Origin: a virus | Reading direction: 5' to 3' (one strand) | IMG/VR virus record: IMGVR_UViG_3300038954_000019 | Coordinates: 1-21,453 of that record | DNA: 21,453 nucleotides | Shown here: one piece after another, positions 1,940 to 21,453 of the stretch | Position numbering within the stretch: the first letter of the stretch is position 1 | Layout: every line of letters begins with the position of its first letter | Made by a program: the position numbers and the translations under genes | The notes under the pieces: model-generated | Seen by the model: the letters and a program-made list of their open reading frames with translations, nothing else | The model's database searches: none | Told to the model about the DNA's origin: nothing

Positions 1940-3535
1940 CTACTCGATGGGCTGCAAAAAATGTCCAGCCAGTTCCACAGATTCCGGCGGCGGCACAAAA
2001 AGCAAATTCAGCCCGGCCTTGCGCGGGATCGCCATCATGTGGAAATCGGCTGTCGGATCGTTGTTCCCGGTCACGGCATCAGAAAGCCACAGATGAGTGT
2101 GGACCGACAACGGCATTGCGCGACCGGTCGAAAAGCCACGATAGATCAATTCGCCGGTCTTTTTTTCGTAGATCCGCAGCCGGTTATTGGCCGTGACGTA
2201 CAAAAACCGCGAGTCGACGTACATCCAATGGATGTCCTCGAGCGGCGCTTTCGTATTTTCCCAGATTTGGGCGCCTTGCGTTCCGCCGGTCATCTCCCAA
2301 GAGGATCTCAGCCCGATGGCGCAAAGACGGGACGTGATCACCTGATCAGCGTGGGATCCTGGGCTTGCGGTCAGGACATAGACCCGATCCCTGTCGGCTT
2401 TAAGCTGCAGGATCCCCGGAGAGGAAAGCGACTCATCGTAGGTGGAGATCAGGATCGACCCGTACACGTCCATTATGTGCACACGGCCATTCTGTGTCCC
2501 TGTGATAACCCGATCTTCCGATATGGCCAGGGCGGTAAGGGGATCGGAATCGTCCGATCCCGCAAAACTGGAAGTGGACTCACCGGCAATATCAAAAACG
2601 TACACTGATTTGCTGTGCGCGATGAACACCCCGGCCCCATTGGAGTACATGTCAACAATGGGATCAATGGAAGAAACAGGTATCATGTAATCGGCAACTT
2701 CGGATCCGTCTGATGCATTGAGCTTCACTAGATTGAAACGATTACTTGCCGAGACCGTCTCAGCGATCCAGACGTGCAGACCATCACAACAGATCCCCTC
2801 GATTGTGCTATCTGCCGTGTAAGACCATTTTGATGCGAATCCACTGGCCGTTCTTGCTTCACAGACCTTTCCAGATCCATTGTGCAAATACACAAACATC
2901 CCATCAGTGCAGCCACCGGCCGGCGCGTTCGCAGCAACAAAACCCGAAACAGATGCCCATGGATACTGTATAACGGGATCTATCCTGATCGGCGTCGGAT
3001 CCGAAATGGTAGACAAATCGTCGATTGCAGCTTCTACGCTTTCGTAGGATCTAATCCATGTTCGATTGTCTACATATTCTCTGGTCGCAATCGTGACGCT
3101 CGGATCCGTGACAAGCGTGACATTTGACGTGTCGCTAAAAGTCATGTAGCATTCAAAATTGATCGGAACAGCTGCCCCGTCCGCAGAAGGGTCTGGCTTT
3201 TGTACTTCCGGTGTACTGCCTATTGCGAGCAAGGCTGTTGTCCCGTCGACCCCAGGTCCAAAAAGCCCCACTTCCCGGATCGTGAAGGGACCTTCTCCGG
3301 CGCTGACACTATTCAATGCGCGGATTGTATCGGATCCGTCCGGATACGTGTCGACCGCGTCGACGTCGTCGATATAGACCTGATTGACCAGATCTGTCCA
3401 CGTGGAATCTGGTGTGATGGGAGATCCACCGCCATCGCCGAGCGCGAGCTGCTGGAACGTCAACTTGTCGCCGCCACTTGGGATCGCTGCTAAAACGGCC
3501 TGTGCCTCATCTGTAAGTATCAGTTCGAATGACAT
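1940..3535 (-). CDS. Tail fibre: collar-fibre N-terminus with propeller-like C-terminus
   Basis: Protein of 531 residues starting at ATG 3535, which overlaps the stop of the preceding gpI gene (TGATG). A TTG one codon upstream is a weaker alternative. Residues 1-150 fit the phage tail-collar fibre N-terminal domain (DUF3751 type): an early LTDEAQAVLAA helix, then KLTFQQLALGDG, TIREVGLFG and a segment close to FECYMTFSDTSNVTL, the part that attaches a fibre to the baseplate. From about residue 190 onward the protein changes to repeated beta blades with motifs such as IEGICCDGLHVWIAE, GVFIAHSKSVYVFD, ALAISEDRVITGTQNG and DRVYVLTAS, as in WD40- or PQQ-like propellers. The tip is probably the receptor-binding part. 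Codons 20-31 contain the protospacer matched by spacer 2 of the mini-array (3445-3477). The propeller call is from repeat rhythm, not from a search. Confidence 0.88.
   Translation of the reverse strand: MSFELILTDEAQAVLAAIPSGGDKLTFQQLALGDGGGSPITPDSTWTDLVNQVYIDDVDAVDTYPDGSDTIRALNSVSAGEGPFTIREVGLFGPGVDGTTALLAIGSTPEVQKPDPSADGAAVPINFECYMTFSDTSNVTLVTDPSVTIATREYVDNRTWIRSYESVEAAIDDLSTISDPTPIRIDPVIQYPWASVSGFVAANAPAGGCTDGMFVYLHNGSGKVCEARTASGFASKWSYTADSTIEGICCDGLHVWIAETVSASNRFNLVKLNASDGSEVADYMIPVSSIDPIVDMYSNGAGVFIAHSKSVYVFDIAGESTSSFAGSDDSDPLTALAISEDRVITGTQNGRVHIMDVYGSILISTYDESLSSPGILQLKADRDRVYVLTASPGSHADQVITSRLCAIGLRSSWEMTGGTQGAQIWENTKAPLEDIHWMYVDSRFLYVTANNRLRIYEKKTGELIYRGFSTGRAMPLSVHTHLWLSDAVTGNNDPTADFHMMAIPRKAGLNLLFVPPPESVELAGHFLQPIE
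3445..3477 (-). other. Protospacer: exact 33-base match to spacer 2 of the mini-CRISPR array
   Basis: Bases 3445-3477 are identical, base for base, to 20527-20559, the spacer between the second and third CRISPR repeats. Identity stops at both ends precisely where the repeats begin (flanking bases 3444 and 3478 differ from 20526 and 20560). The segment encodes residues about 20-31 (SGGDKLTFQQLA) of the fibre protein. On the minus strand it is preceded by TCCCAA and begins GTGG, so an AAG straddles the edge, matching the known type I-E PAM if the repeat is counted as 29 and the spacer as 32 bases. Confidence 0.93.
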
Positions 3536-4107
3536 CAAAAATCTCCTAGTTTCACGATCAGCCCGATATTGCAGCCAGATCCAAGATATGTCGTCCCCGA
3601 TTCATCGTAGTGTAGTGTAAGCGTCTCAAGAAATGATCTCGCCGGCTTGTAGAATGCGACAAGATTTTTTAGCGCTCGGATCTTGTCTGCCGTGATCCCG
3701 TCGTCAGATATCCAGAGGTGCATCCGGAAATAGAATGCAGATCCCCCATAATCAAACCACTCTTGTATCGTCCCGCTTTCGCCGATGACGCCAAAGAGCC
3801 GTTTTACGCTCCAGACAGTGCCGGCCCTTGCGTATAACTCAAAAACTTCTTTGATCAACGATCGCTTTTCGTCCAGCGAAGCATAAGTCCAGCCTTCCAA
3901 ACTCAAGATATGAAATCCCCACGCAACCGCGTCGAGCACGTCTTCGGGCTGCTCGTCGATAGCTGGCCAAATCACCGCCTTGACGATAGCTGACGCCACG
4001 TCTCGGACCTCCGGCTCCAGCGCCTTGTTCATGGCCTGGATTTCGGGATCGCTGCGAATAGATTCTGGCGTTACATCGTCTAGTGTGACAGTGCGCAGAT
4101 CAATCAT
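3535..4107 (-). CDS. I: Baseplate wedge protein gpI-like (tail protein I)
   Basis: A 190-residue protein. I chose ATG 4107 (MIDLRTVTLDDVTPESIR) because GAGGGG lies 7 bases upstream; ATG 4122 is possible but has no good ribosome site. The start overlaps the end of gene J by 8 bases. It matches P2 gpI/phage tail protein I by an N-terminal stretch around LTPESIRxDPxIQAM, a central segment on residues about 40-85 ending in LIKEVFELYARAGTVWSVKR, then FGVIG and EWFDYGG, and a C-terminal region about HIGLIVKLG-like strands. In P2-type phages gpI and gpJ form the wedge that connects the hub to the fibres, which agrees with its place between J and the fibre gene. Confidence 0.88.
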   Translation of the reverse strand: MIDLRTVTLDDVTPESIRSDPEIQAMNKALEPEVRDVASAIVKAVIWPAIDEQPEDVLDAVAWGFHILSLEGWTYASLDEKRSLIKEVFELYARAGTVWSVKRLFGVIGESGTIQEWFDYGGSAFYFRMHLWISDDGITADKIRALKNLVAFYKPARSFLETLTLHYDESGTTYLGSGCNIGLIVKLGDF

Positions 4108-18618: not shown

Positions 18619-20448
18619 CTACGGACCCATCTGGATTTTTCCGCGCTTGCGAATCCGGCGAGAGCCCGAAGGCTGCTTCGCCTTTCCTTTTTGATCAAGA
18701 TCCAAGACTGGTGCCAAAATCTCTAACGCGGCTGTCGCGTAATTCCTCACATCTAGCGGCTCGTTGCGCTCTCGGATCTGAACCCATCGGCGCCGGCGGC
18801 GGCCGGCGACAGTTTTGATTTCGCGTTTTTCGGACGTCAACCCAAGGTAGTACGGGTGGTCATATCCGCTCTTCGGATCGCTCGGAAAATGACAGTACCC
18901 TGGCCCTGGCTTTCTGATCGCCAGCCGGTCGAATAGTAGATCCTTCAGCGAGTCGACACCTACCGGATAAGCGACTACACGATGGCGCCCATATTGCTTT
19001 GGCTTGCCTATGATCGGCCGGCCGAAGCCAGGAACGCCAAAGATCGGCCTTACCCCCCTGCGGATCCGCGCCTTACAGTATTTGTCGACCGTATCCGTGC
19101 GGTGCCCGCCACGGTCGATGCAGATCAGCCGTGCGATCAACTCCTGTCCATCGGCGCGTCTTACAGTTTGCCAGAGGAGCTCGTCGAGCTCTTGCCAGAT
19201 CTGCGGCTGCGACGTGTCGCCTGTCAGCACGCGATATCCAAGCCCCCAAGACTCACGACCTTGCCCCCAGCCTACCCACTCGGCTGCGATCCAGTGGTCT
19301 TGGACATCTACTCCACAGGTTACCACCTGTACCGCGTTTGGCGCCATGCTGGCCGAATACTCGGATCTGTTTTTGTCAAGATCGCCAGCTTCTACGTGCT
19401 CCGAGTCCTCTGTGGCCCACACGCGGCCCAGATCCAAGTTGATGAATTCCTGTAGGCCTCGCTTGTCCCGATCTCGGTTGATTTTGACCCACTTTTCTGC
19501 GAGATCTGCCCACCTTACCCACGGCGACAGGATGCACGACATCTGGTATCCGCGCTTGCGGCGCTCGGGATGCTCGGCTTTCCATTCGCCGGCCAGATCC
19601 ATGGCGTTTTTGTCTCGCTCCTCGATCCTTTCGCCGCAATGTTTGCACAAATAGTGCACGTCGTCGAAGTCGATCTCGCCTAAGGCGTTCTTGTAGACGA
19701 TCCCATCCCACTCAAGCACCTGAAGTGCCCCGCAGTGTGGGCATGGGACCCATCGTCTGCGCTGGTCTGTCTCTGCGAATCGCTCGCCGATCGGGCTGAG
19801 CCCTGCGATAGTGGGGGTCGACACTCCGATGATCTTCCTGTTGTAAAAATTGGCGGTCCGCTTCATCGCTTGGGCGATCGGATCCCCGTCGCGGCCGGTT
19901 TTCACCGGATACTTGTCGATTTCGTCAAGGATCAAGACACGGATCGACCTCGAGGCTAGCGTGGCGGCCGCATTCGCAGATCCGAACGCCAGGTATCCAC
20001 CAGGAAACATTTTGAGCTCGATCGTATTGCCCTTGTCCCTCTGGCTGTCGGTCAAGAGCCCCCGCAGCGCGGGGGTCTGCCTAAAGGTGGGGTCGATCCG
20101 CTCTTTCGAAAAGCTCTTTGCCGCATCTTGAGTCTCTCGGACGTACAGGATCGGCGCCGGGTCTTGATGGGCATGGTACCCGATCACGTTGAGGGCAAGC
20201 TCACTCTTGCCGACCTGCGAGGCCATTTGGAGCCACAGTTCTTCGATCGTCGGATCGCAAGCTGCGTCCAATATTTCGCGCATGTACGGGACCCGGTCTG
20301 TACGCCATGGTCCCCACTCGGCCGAGGTGCCGCGTGCGACAAACCGATGGAGATCAGCCCACTCTCCCCCGCTGAGATCGGGGCGGGGCTTCAGGATCGA
20401 TAGGAAGGATCTTGTCCACTCGCCTTCATTCATCCTCCTTGCCTCCAT
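18619..20448 (-). CDS. Terminase large subunit (GpA family)
   Basis: A 609-residue protein if ATG 20448 is used, 604 from ATG 20433; the first lies inside the last CRISPR repeat, the second directly touches an AAGGAGG, so the start is uncertain. Motifs of the ATPase: Walker A MASQVGKS (75-82), Walker B VLILDEID (171-178) and STP (210-212). A zinc-ribbon pair follows, CPHC (236-239) and CKHC (268-271), as in many GpA-type terminases. The nuclease part has GVDVQDHW (Asp381), CIDRGGH (Asp445) and LDVRNYATAALE near the end. It cuts concatemers and packages DNA through the portal. No small-subunit gene is seen next to it; the expected place is taken by the mini-array and tnpB. Confidence 0.95.
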   Translation of the reverse strand: MEARRMNEGEWTRSFLSILKPRPDLSGGEWADLHRFVARGTSAEWGPWRTDRVPYMREILDAACDPTIEELWLQMASQVGKSELALNVIGYHAHQDPAPILYVRETQDAAKSFSKERIDPTFRQTPALRGLLTDSQRDKGNTIELKMFPGGYLAFGSANAAATLASRSIRVLILDEIDKYPVKTGRDGDPIAQAMKRTANFYNRKIIGVSTPTIAGLSPIGERFAETDQRRRWVPCPHCGALQVLEWDGIVYKNALGEIDFDDVHYLCKHCGERIEERDKNAMDLAGEWKAEHPERRKRGYQMSCILSPWVRWADLAEKWVKINRDRDKRGLQEFINLDLGRVWATEDSEHVEAGDLDKNRSEYSASMAPNAVQVVTCGVDVQDHWIAAEWVGWGQGRESWGLGYRVLTGDTSQPQIWQELDELLWQTVRRADGQELIARLICIDRGGHRTDTVDKYCKARIRRGVRPIFGVPGFGRPIIGKPKQYGRHRVVAYPVGVDSLKDLLFDRLAIRKPGPGYCHFPSDPKSGYDHPYYLGLTSEKREIKTVAGRRRRRWVQIRERNEPLDVRNYATAALEILAPVLDLDQKGKAKQPSGSRRIRKRGKIQMGP

Positions 20449-20587
20449 GCGCGCGCGGGGCTGACTTGGGCCCGCCGAAAGCCGCCAGGGGCTAGCAACT
20501 CGCCTCCATGCGCGCGCGGGGCTGACCGAGCTGCTGGAACGTCAACTTGTCGCCGCCACCTCGCCTCCATGCGCGCGCGGGGCTGAC
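20438..20587 (-). CRISPR. Mini-CRISPR array: three 28-bp repeats, two 33-bp spacers
   Basis: Repeats lie at 20438-20465, 20499-20526 and 20560-20587, with an exact 61-bp period. Repeats 2 and 3 are identical; repeat 1 has one change (20440, T instead of C on the plus strand). Spacers are 20466-20498 and 20527-20559. Read on the minus strand the repeat starts GTCAGCCCCGCGCGCGC and ends ATGGAGGCGAG, similar in layout to type I-E repeats (GT..., CCCCGCGC core), and 28+33 equals the I-E period of 29+32. The altered repeat at the terminase end has its change near its 3' end on this strand, as expected for a terminal repeat, so the leader would lie at 20588-20671. Folding does not settle the direction: the plus-sense RNA pairs GCCUC with GGGGC, while the minus-sense RNA has a mismatch there. 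Spacer 2 matches 3445-3477 exactly; spacer 1 has no match that I found in the window. No cas adaptation or Cascade gene is present. Confidence 0.88.
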
Positions 20588-20671
20588 CCTGCGACGCATT
20601 GTCACACCCAGTTTGCGCATAGTCCGTGCAGTTTTCACCACACACACCAGGACGCCTGGTGGTTTTTCGTA
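20588..20671. other. Gap between tnpB and the array: presumed leader
   Basis: This 84-base segment holds no gene. If the array is read on the minus strand it is the leader. It carries the hairpin at 20645-20661 and, closer to the first repeat, a mixed-composition stretch without a convincing -35/-10 pair. It is short for a CRISPR leader. It could also be the right end of a TnpB-type element, whose guide-RNA scaffold usually overlaps the end of tnpB. Confidence 0.4.
20645..20667 (+). terminator. Hairpin with T-run, plus-strand terminator or element end
   Basis: CACCAGG (20645-20651) and CCTGGTG (20655-20661) form a perfect 7-bp stem around an ACG loop, followed on the plus strand by GTTTTT. 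This is the form of an intrinsic terminator for plus-strand transcription, although no plus-strand gene is seen. It starts 10 bases beyond the tnpB stop, so it might instead be the subterminal palindrome of an IS200/IS605-type right end or part of a guide-RNA scaffold. Confidence 0.55.
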
Positions 20672-21451
20672 TTATCCAACATCTCTCAACCCTGTTGCCG
20701 CAGCCAAGATCACCATCGCAGCATTCCTGTCTCTGTCACACTCCCATCCGCAATGCGAACATCGATATTTCCGATCGCCTAGGCCCATCTTTTGCTGTGC
20801 GCCGCAGCTAGCGCACGTCTGCGTCGGCTTGATCTTGCGAGTATCCACCTCCACGAATTCAATCCCAGCCTCTTTGCATTTTGCCCGACACATTTGCAAA
20901 AGCAGTCCAGGTGCGCTGTCCAAAATCGAACGATTTAGGCCAGCTTTTTGCTTGACGTTCTTACCCGGCATTTTTTCGCTTCCTTTGGCCGTCGCAGTCA
21001 TATTTCGCACCTGCAGCTTCTCGGTACACAGCACAGAAGCCCTTTTAACAAGATCGCAGGATACCTGATGCACAAAGTTCCGTCTGATGTCCTGGATTTT
21101 ACGATCAAGACGTTGTAGCTTCCGCAATACCTTGTGCCAATTCCTCGATCCCTTCTGCTTTCGTGCAAGGCGGCGCTGCAACGCAGCCTTTTGCTCTTGG
21201 TATTTTGGGGCGTGACGAGGATTTTCGACATGCTCGCCGGTGTGTAGCGTCAAGTATTTACTGGTCCCCCAATCAAAAGCAATCGCTTTGTTACCATGCT
21301 GGCGATCATCGTCGACCCGCATGCCGTCGCATCTCGCGCATGCGCGAATTGCAACCGCGTTTTTGCGCGAGTCCGCGCAGACGAAAAGTCCACGCATGGC
21401 GGTACGCCCGCCATTTTTTGCAAAAAAAAAGCCCCGCAGGGTGACATGCAC
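20672..21451 (-). CDS. tnpB: TnpB/OrfB-family RuvC nuclease, N-terminus missing or beyond window
   Basis: Up to 259 residues from the window edge to TAA 20674. Key residues of the RuvC-like core are all present: Asp60 in AIAFDWGTSKYLTLH, Glu144 in LCTEKLQVRNM, a zinc ribbon Cys213/216 and Cys231/234 (TCASCG, RCSHCG), and DRDRNAA at 239-245. Between them lies the arginine/lysine-rich helical stretch typical of OrfB_IS605 (KAALQRRLARKQKGSRNW). Full TnpB proteins are near 400 residues, with about 170-190 before the first Asp; here only 59 are visible and they do not look like the normal WED/REC part. The gene may continue past the edge, or be 5'-truncated. No TnpA gene is visible. TnpB proteins are RNA-guided DNA nucleases; Cas12 effectors descend from them. 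GATC content is lower than in the phage genes, which hints at separate origin. Confidence 0.82.
   Translation of the reverse strand: MHVTLRGFFFAKNGGRTAMRGLFVCADSRKNAVAIRACARCDGMRVDDDRQHGNKAIAFDWGTSKYLTLHTGEHVENPRHAPKYQEQKAALQRRLARKQKGSRNWHKVLRKLQRLDRKIQDIRRNFVHQVSCDLVKRASVLCTEKLQVRNMTATAKGSEKMPGKNVKQKAGLNRSILDSAPGLLLQMCRAKCKEAGIEFVEVDTRKIKPTQTCASCGAQQKMGLGDRKYRCSHCGWECDRDRNAAMVILAAATGLRDVG
21422..21437 (-). terminator. Possible 3' half of a minus-strand terminator at the window edge
   Basis: On the minus strand GCGGGGC (21437-21431) is followed at once by nine T (21430-21422), the usual end of an intrinsic terminator. The matching 5' arm would have to lie at or beyond position 21453, so it cannot be seen. 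If it is real, transcription of an upstream gene ends here and the first residues of the tnpB frame (GFFFAK) are terminator sequence, which would move the tnpB start to about 21397 or later. Confidence 0.35.
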
Positions 21452-21453
21452 CG

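Follow-up and report, generated by a model that had tools for sequence, protein, structure and literature searches.

Around 50 independent associations of TnpB proteins with clustered regularly interspaced short palindromic repeats (CRISPR) have been inferred (PMC12669027). Phage-borne type V-U loci and TnpB genes beside phage arrays are already known (PMC6293099, PMC12607003), and so is the use of mini-arrays in conflicts between viruses (PMC6858448). Here we describe a short CRISPR array on a stretch of viral DNA of 21,453 nucleotides (IMG/VR record IMGVR_UViG_3300038954_000019, positions 1 to 21,453; hereafter the window), which carries a spacer identical to part of the tail-fibre gene of the same genome and adjoins the remnant of a TnpB/Cas12-like effector gene. 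The complete effector gene is found on a nearly identical viral contig, L004, where the array lacks the self spacer.

Comparison with known systems

The locus has the layout of the Cas12n (c2c9, type V-U4) loci of Rothia (L159), Saccharopolyspora (L161) and the phage contigs L043 and L057, namely an effector of TnpB size, an array directly 3′ of it, a repeat of the 29-nt class and a period of 60–61 bp. Its repeat is closest in sequence to that of Rothia Cas12n (18 of the first 21 bases), for which the leader can likewise pair with the repeat. Unlike in these loci, however, the effector falls into another clade and its N-terminal half is unrelated at the sequence level. The closest proteins are the TnpBs of IS200/IS605 transposons, which work with an omega-RNA, and the best fold match is ISDra2 TnpB, but the locus does not have the make-up of such a transposon: no TnpA lies beside the effector gene in L004, a transposon end is missing from the expected place, and repeats and spacers stand where the omega-RNA would have its 3′ end.

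Cyanophage CL131, with its type V-U2 locus (PMC6293099), and landfill phages (PMC12607003) similarly hold a TnpB-like gene beside an array without adaptation genes. The CL131 repeats differ in being 36 nt long, and the accessible parts of these reports mention neither near-identical sisters with spacer turnover nor a self spacer. The mini-arrays of SPV1 and SPV2 (PMC6858448) contain 1–3 spacers that turn over between close virus strains, but those viruses carry no effector gene and avoid self-targeting by altered protospacers, whereas the window combines an unaltered protospacer with a truncated effector. TranC intermediates (LaTranC, 9jfo and 9jfq) are TnpB-like effectors on the way to Cas12; the structural model of the L004 effector matches LaTranC with a Z score of 18.3, which is weaker than its match to TnpB, and the likeness to TranC is drawn from LaTranC similarity only. 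The present locus is set apart by the exchange of spacers between near-identical phages and by a genome in which a truncated effector coexists with a spacer whose protospacer, in the phage itself, is intact.

The array carries a self spacer that is missing from a sister phage

Three 28-bp repeats with a constant period of 61 bp span positions 20438-20587 of the window, as a preliminary description of the sequence had reported with the same coordinates. On the minus strand, which is the strand of the array, the repeat reads GTCAGCCCCGCGCGCGCATGGAGGCGAG. The two copies nearer the leader are identical, and the leader-distal copy, which ends in ...GGCAAG, differs by one base. Starting from the leader side at 20587, the order is repeat, spacer X, repeat, spacer A and a degenerate last repeat (Table 1). 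The exact match of spacer X to the phage's own tail-fibre gene was borne out: all 33 of 33 bases are identical, and identity ends precisely at both spacer borders. Shuffled sequence yields no such matches, in agreement with the earlier estimate that chance is negligible. The 33 matching bases can be read equally well as a 32-nt spacer plus one base derived from the protospacer-adjacent motif (PAM). No second copy of spacer A exists within the window.

When the viral contigs were scanned with the repeat and with the effector protein, both scans returned a single contig of 5,585 bp (L003/L004), and searches for further relatives by the terminase or by the truncated effector led only to this sister contig. 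From terL to portal it differs from the window by 2 substitutions in 2,153 bp; the leader differs at 1 of 84 positions and the 127 bp upstream are identical. In L004, the effector gene is followed by the same leader and then by an array in which four repeats enclose spacers A, B and C, so that the two arrays (X-A and A-B-C) have one spacer in common and self spacer X is not found in L004. Since the newest spacer usually lies nearest the leader, X would be the newest spacer and B and C would have been lost in the window lineage. The comparison of both sequences indicates that spacers have really turned over between phages that come close to being a single strain. This makes a random repeat or an artefact less plausible and upholds the CRISPR nature first proposed for the 28-bp repeat. 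The regular repeats, unique spacers, exact borders, leader-side turnover and degenerate last repeat are those of a CRISPR array.

The adjoining effector gene is truncated in the window

The preliminary description had regarded the locus as a phage-borne mini-array with an exact self spacer, which stands, but the array is not an orphan: it begins 84 bp downstream of a TnpB/Cas12-like gene on the same strand. In both contigs, the effector gene, the leader and the array follow one another in the same orientation, which is the stable link of a TnpB-like effector with an array by which type V-U is broadly defined. The gene matches OrfB_IS605, Cas12f1-like_TNB and guided_TnpB (Pfam/NCBIfam/PADLOC). 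In L004, it is complete, lies between terS (phrog_57) and terL, starts at GTG 1830 and encodes 435 amino acids with an intact RuvC triad (D236, E320 and D417) and the zinc ribbon cysteines C389/C392/C407/C410. The AlphaFold model of this protein (mean predicted local distance difference test score, pLDDT, of 84) matches TnpB-omegaRNA complexes best (Z 24.5). The L004 protein hence combines the triad, zinc ribbon and fold of the TnpB/Cas12 superfamily, while the window copy is without the N-terminal half.

In the window, 741 bp (L004 1742-2482) are missing at a joint at 21326/21327. The deleted segment held the ribosome-binding site, the start codon and residues 1-217. Its loss fuses the effector remnant to upstream sequence, and the resulting open reading frame runs to 21451, with residues 41-259 showing 100% protein identity to the L004 effector. 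No exact microhomology and no shared bases are present at the joint, which makes a simple assembly (k-mer) collapse unlikely. Because residues 1-220 of the L004 model align to 8ex9, a TnpB structure in which RuvC is unresolved, the lost part would be the WED/REC half, where guide and target are bound. As judged from this model, the window remnant should be unable to use guides and is probably dead, and the truncation would make the self spacer harmless. The preliminary description had reasoned that an active system would attack its own carrier; the exact target is indeed present, and the truncated effector offers a candidate answer outside the options listed there. The self spacer occurs together with the truncated effector and is missing where the effector appears intact, an association that, with two genomes, is only suggestive.

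Upstream of its effector gene, L004 contains two exact 30-bp copies of GTTGCAATTCGCGCATGCGCGAGATGCGAG (1713-1742 and 1777-1806), which are 64 bp apart and whose end resembles that of the CRISPR repeat (GATGCGAG/GAGGCGAG). The window holds one copy of GTTGCAATTCGCGCATGCGCGAGATGCGAG, at the end of which the deletion begins, and the 34-bp stretch between the two L004 copies is not in the window.

The effector groups with IS605 TnpBs and not with Cas12n

Scanned with a profile, the viral contigs yielded 79 loci, with 61-bp-period arrays directly 3′ of the gene in L043, L057 and L051 and arrays of other periods in L022/L023/L025 and L083/L084. A scan of genomes added the loci in Rothia and Saccharopolyspora and one in a metagenome-assembled genome (MAG) of the Flavobacteriales. 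The effectors of L043 and L057 are true Cas12n (c2c9) proteins. In our trees, L004 lies inside a clade of IS605 TnpBs of which no other sampled member has an array, and the array-bearing effectors except L051 form a separate clade; L004 sits on a long branch and its exact sister is uncertain. The closest cellular relatives are five related IS605 TnpB copies (L089, L090, L091, L094 and L095; JACPHN01 contigs) in one Candidatus Schekmanbacteria MAG, with up to 43% over the C-terminal 300 residues.

Membership of the L004 effector in Cas12n (type V-U4) was considered and rejected on scores and trees. It reaches 173 bits to the Cas12u4 model versus about 650 bits for the Cas12n members, and a grouping of L004 with the Cas12n clade is rejected with a p value of 0.0009 (0.051 in a quicker tree). 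Among the fold matches, RdCas12n (9j09) appears as no more than a partial one, which speaks neither for nor against membership.

Other phage loci of this kind were also inspected. The Cas12n contigs L043 (3409-3930) and L057 (3430-4300) contain long 61-bp-period arrays. L022 (1949-3520), L025 (2060-3560) and L083 (1844-3850) have viral TnpB/Cas12-like genes followed by arrays and group with Cas12n in the tree; 36-nt repeats recur at 65-66 bp, and the spacing in L083 is irregular (67-73 bp). In L051 (2204-3900), a viral contig of 435 kb, a TnpB outside the Cas12n clade adjoins an array with a 61-bp period; shuffled leaders pair with the repeat much less well than its own leader does, and further partial copies of the region lie nearby. 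No self-matching spacers were found in the phage TnpB arrays of L043, L057 and L022, and the L051 array matches only copies within about 2.3 kb of itself.

Predicted pairing of the leader with the first repeat

Folded together, the leader and the first repeat are predicted to form two hairpins and a long stem, with leader-repeat pairs at GUCA, CCCG and GCGCAUGG. The folding energy was better than that of shuffled leaders, with p values of 0.015 for the window and 0.003 for L004; the same test gave 0.003 for Rothia Cas12n and none in 300 for phage L051. The omega-RNA of the IS605 relatives stops at a right end of GGAG..GTTCAT type, which lies within the last part of the gene or a short way past it; in the window and in L004, this position is taken by repeats and spacers. 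The modelled folds suggest that the leader can form a guide-RNA-like structure with the first repeat. At gathering level, no known RNA family was detected in the window, L004, L043, L051 or L159, and a loose RNA-family search of the locus produced one chance-level match. The repeat alone is a poor hairpin, with -7.4 kcal/mol compared to -12.8 and -14.3 kcal/mol for type I-E repeats.

Possible origin of the spacers

No cas1 gene was found in the window. A 61-bp period, an AAG motif and an extra matching base are typical of uptake by type I-E systems, and all of them are seen here, the motif and the PAM-derived base at one protospacer only; the strong central hairpin of type I-E repeats is missing. 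In addition to Cas12n arrays with a 60-61-bp period, Rothia and Saccharopolyspora have type I-E cas1 and type I-E arrays whose period is the same, and the Saccharopolyspora I-E repeat has 17 of 28 bases in common with that of the window. The spacers were probably taken up by a host I-E integrase in trans. For Cas12n, an AAN motif has been described (PMC12477157), and the AAG at the X protospacer fits this motif as well as I-E uptake. The preliminary description had noted that virus-borne mini-arrays can use host Cas proteins; here, a repeat without the strong hairpin is less likely to be used by a host I-E interference complex.

Interpretation and alternative explanations

We consider it rather likely that the locus represents a separate phage-borne association of TnpB with CRISPR, of type V-U or TranC-like, the self-spacer copy of which has been truncated. 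The unit would consist of one TnpB-type nuclease gene, a downstream guide-RNA scaffold and a short array whose repeats replace the 3′ end of the omega-RNA. In the intact form (L004), the array transcript would supply the guides, leader-repeat pairing would make the scaffold and the nuclease may cut DNA beside an A-rich 5′ motif, its most likely role being the exclusion of competing phages or plasmids. New spacers would enter at the leader end, probably inserted in trans by a type I-E Cas1-Cas2 of the host. The window lineage would have taken up a spacer against the tail gene of the phage itself and lost the effector's WED/REC half, in either order, leaving a silent array. The fuller account is more tentative, and we put it somewhat below an even chance: a phage made an IS605 TnpB its CRISPR effector in an event separate from those behind the known type V lineages, a host integrase supplies spacers in trans and, in one lineage, losing the guide-binding half put an end to the autoimmunity that an acquired spacer had caused. 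The near-identical sister phages would then show the birth of a CRISPR unit, the turnover of its spacers and its decay through autoimmunity next to each other. If the proposed reading holds, the locus would be a small, testable case of a transposon nuclease becoming a CRISPR effector, of phages getting spacers although they have no adaptation genes themselves and of a virus surviving a self-targeting spacer.

Several observations weigh against this interpretation. The lineage is known from only two contigs, both metagenomic, so that the link between self spacer and truncation comes from one genome pair. Anti-repeat pairing was modest in duplex-only tests (p 0.04-0.07), and a single protospacer is insufficient to define a motif, AA being expected there by chance in 1 of 16 cases. 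Database searches of the kind proposed in the preliminary description gave no match: no target of spacer A, B or C was detected in the viral contigs (searched by 20-base seeds), the phages collection or the window, the core of the X target occurs in no other viral contig searched, and the repeat matched none of 84,980 genomes.

Of the other explanations, an orphan mini-array that relies on a host type I-E system for both interference and adaptation, with the TnpB neighbour as an unrelated transposon remnant, appears unlikely, though it is the most probable of them. The period, the AAG motif and the 33-base match are type I-E hallmarks, the repeat resembles the Saccharopolyspora I-E repeat, mini-arrays on viruses that use host Cas proteins are known (PMC6858448) and IS605 TnpBs are common in phages. 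The poor repeat hairpin speaks against it, however, as do the position of the array where the 3′ end of an omega-RNA would lie, a leader that can pair with the repeat, the missing TnpA next to the L004 effector and the recurrence of the same layout in other phages. We regard an assembly artefact or chimera in one contig, which could have made the truncation or the array difference, as improbable: both sequences are metagenomic and the window ends inside the locus, but k-mer collapse cannot make a joint without shared bases, the repeat borders are exact, and the other contig shares the array site and one of its spacers. Least probable of all, in our view, is a deliberate use of the self spacer, in which a complex that binds without cutting would repress the tail-fibre gene of the phage itself or set the time of its expression. 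The perfect protospacer has been kept and TnpB-like guided repressors exist in phages (TldR, PMC13418256), but the window effector is without its WED/REC half, the sister effector keeps its catalytic triad, and spacer X is missing from the sister contig.

Features of the window

Table 1. Features of the locus and of the spacer X target in the window
Feature	Position	Strand	Basis or remark
Tail-collar fibre gene holding the X protospacer	1940..3538	-	PF12571
Protospacer of X	3445..3477	-	CCCAA precedes on minus strand; motif AAG (3477-3479) if the spacer is 32 nt
Large terminase subunit gene of gpA type, adjoins the array on its downstream side; ATG 20433 is a possible start	18619..20448	-	
Terminal repeat, 1 change, runs into terminase gene start	20438..20465	-	
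Spacer A, also in L004, no target found	20466..20498	-	spacer comparison
Repeat, middle	20499..20526	-	repeat alignment
Spacer X, identical to own tail-fibre gene, leader-proximal, not in L004	20527..20559	-	33/33 identity
Repeat, leader-proximal	20560..20587	-	repeat alignment
Leader, 84 nt, predicted pairing with first repeat (omega-RNA/tracr-like scaffold)	20588..20671	-	folding
Effector remnant, residues ~218-435 (RuvC and zinc ribbon)	20672..21326	-	Pfam/NCBIfam/PADLOC matches
127 bp from upstream of the effector gene, equal to L004 1615-1741	21327..21453	-	deletion mapping

No tRNA genes were found in the window. The C-terminal part of the tail-collar fibre protein shows a weak match to PQQ/BamB-like propellers.
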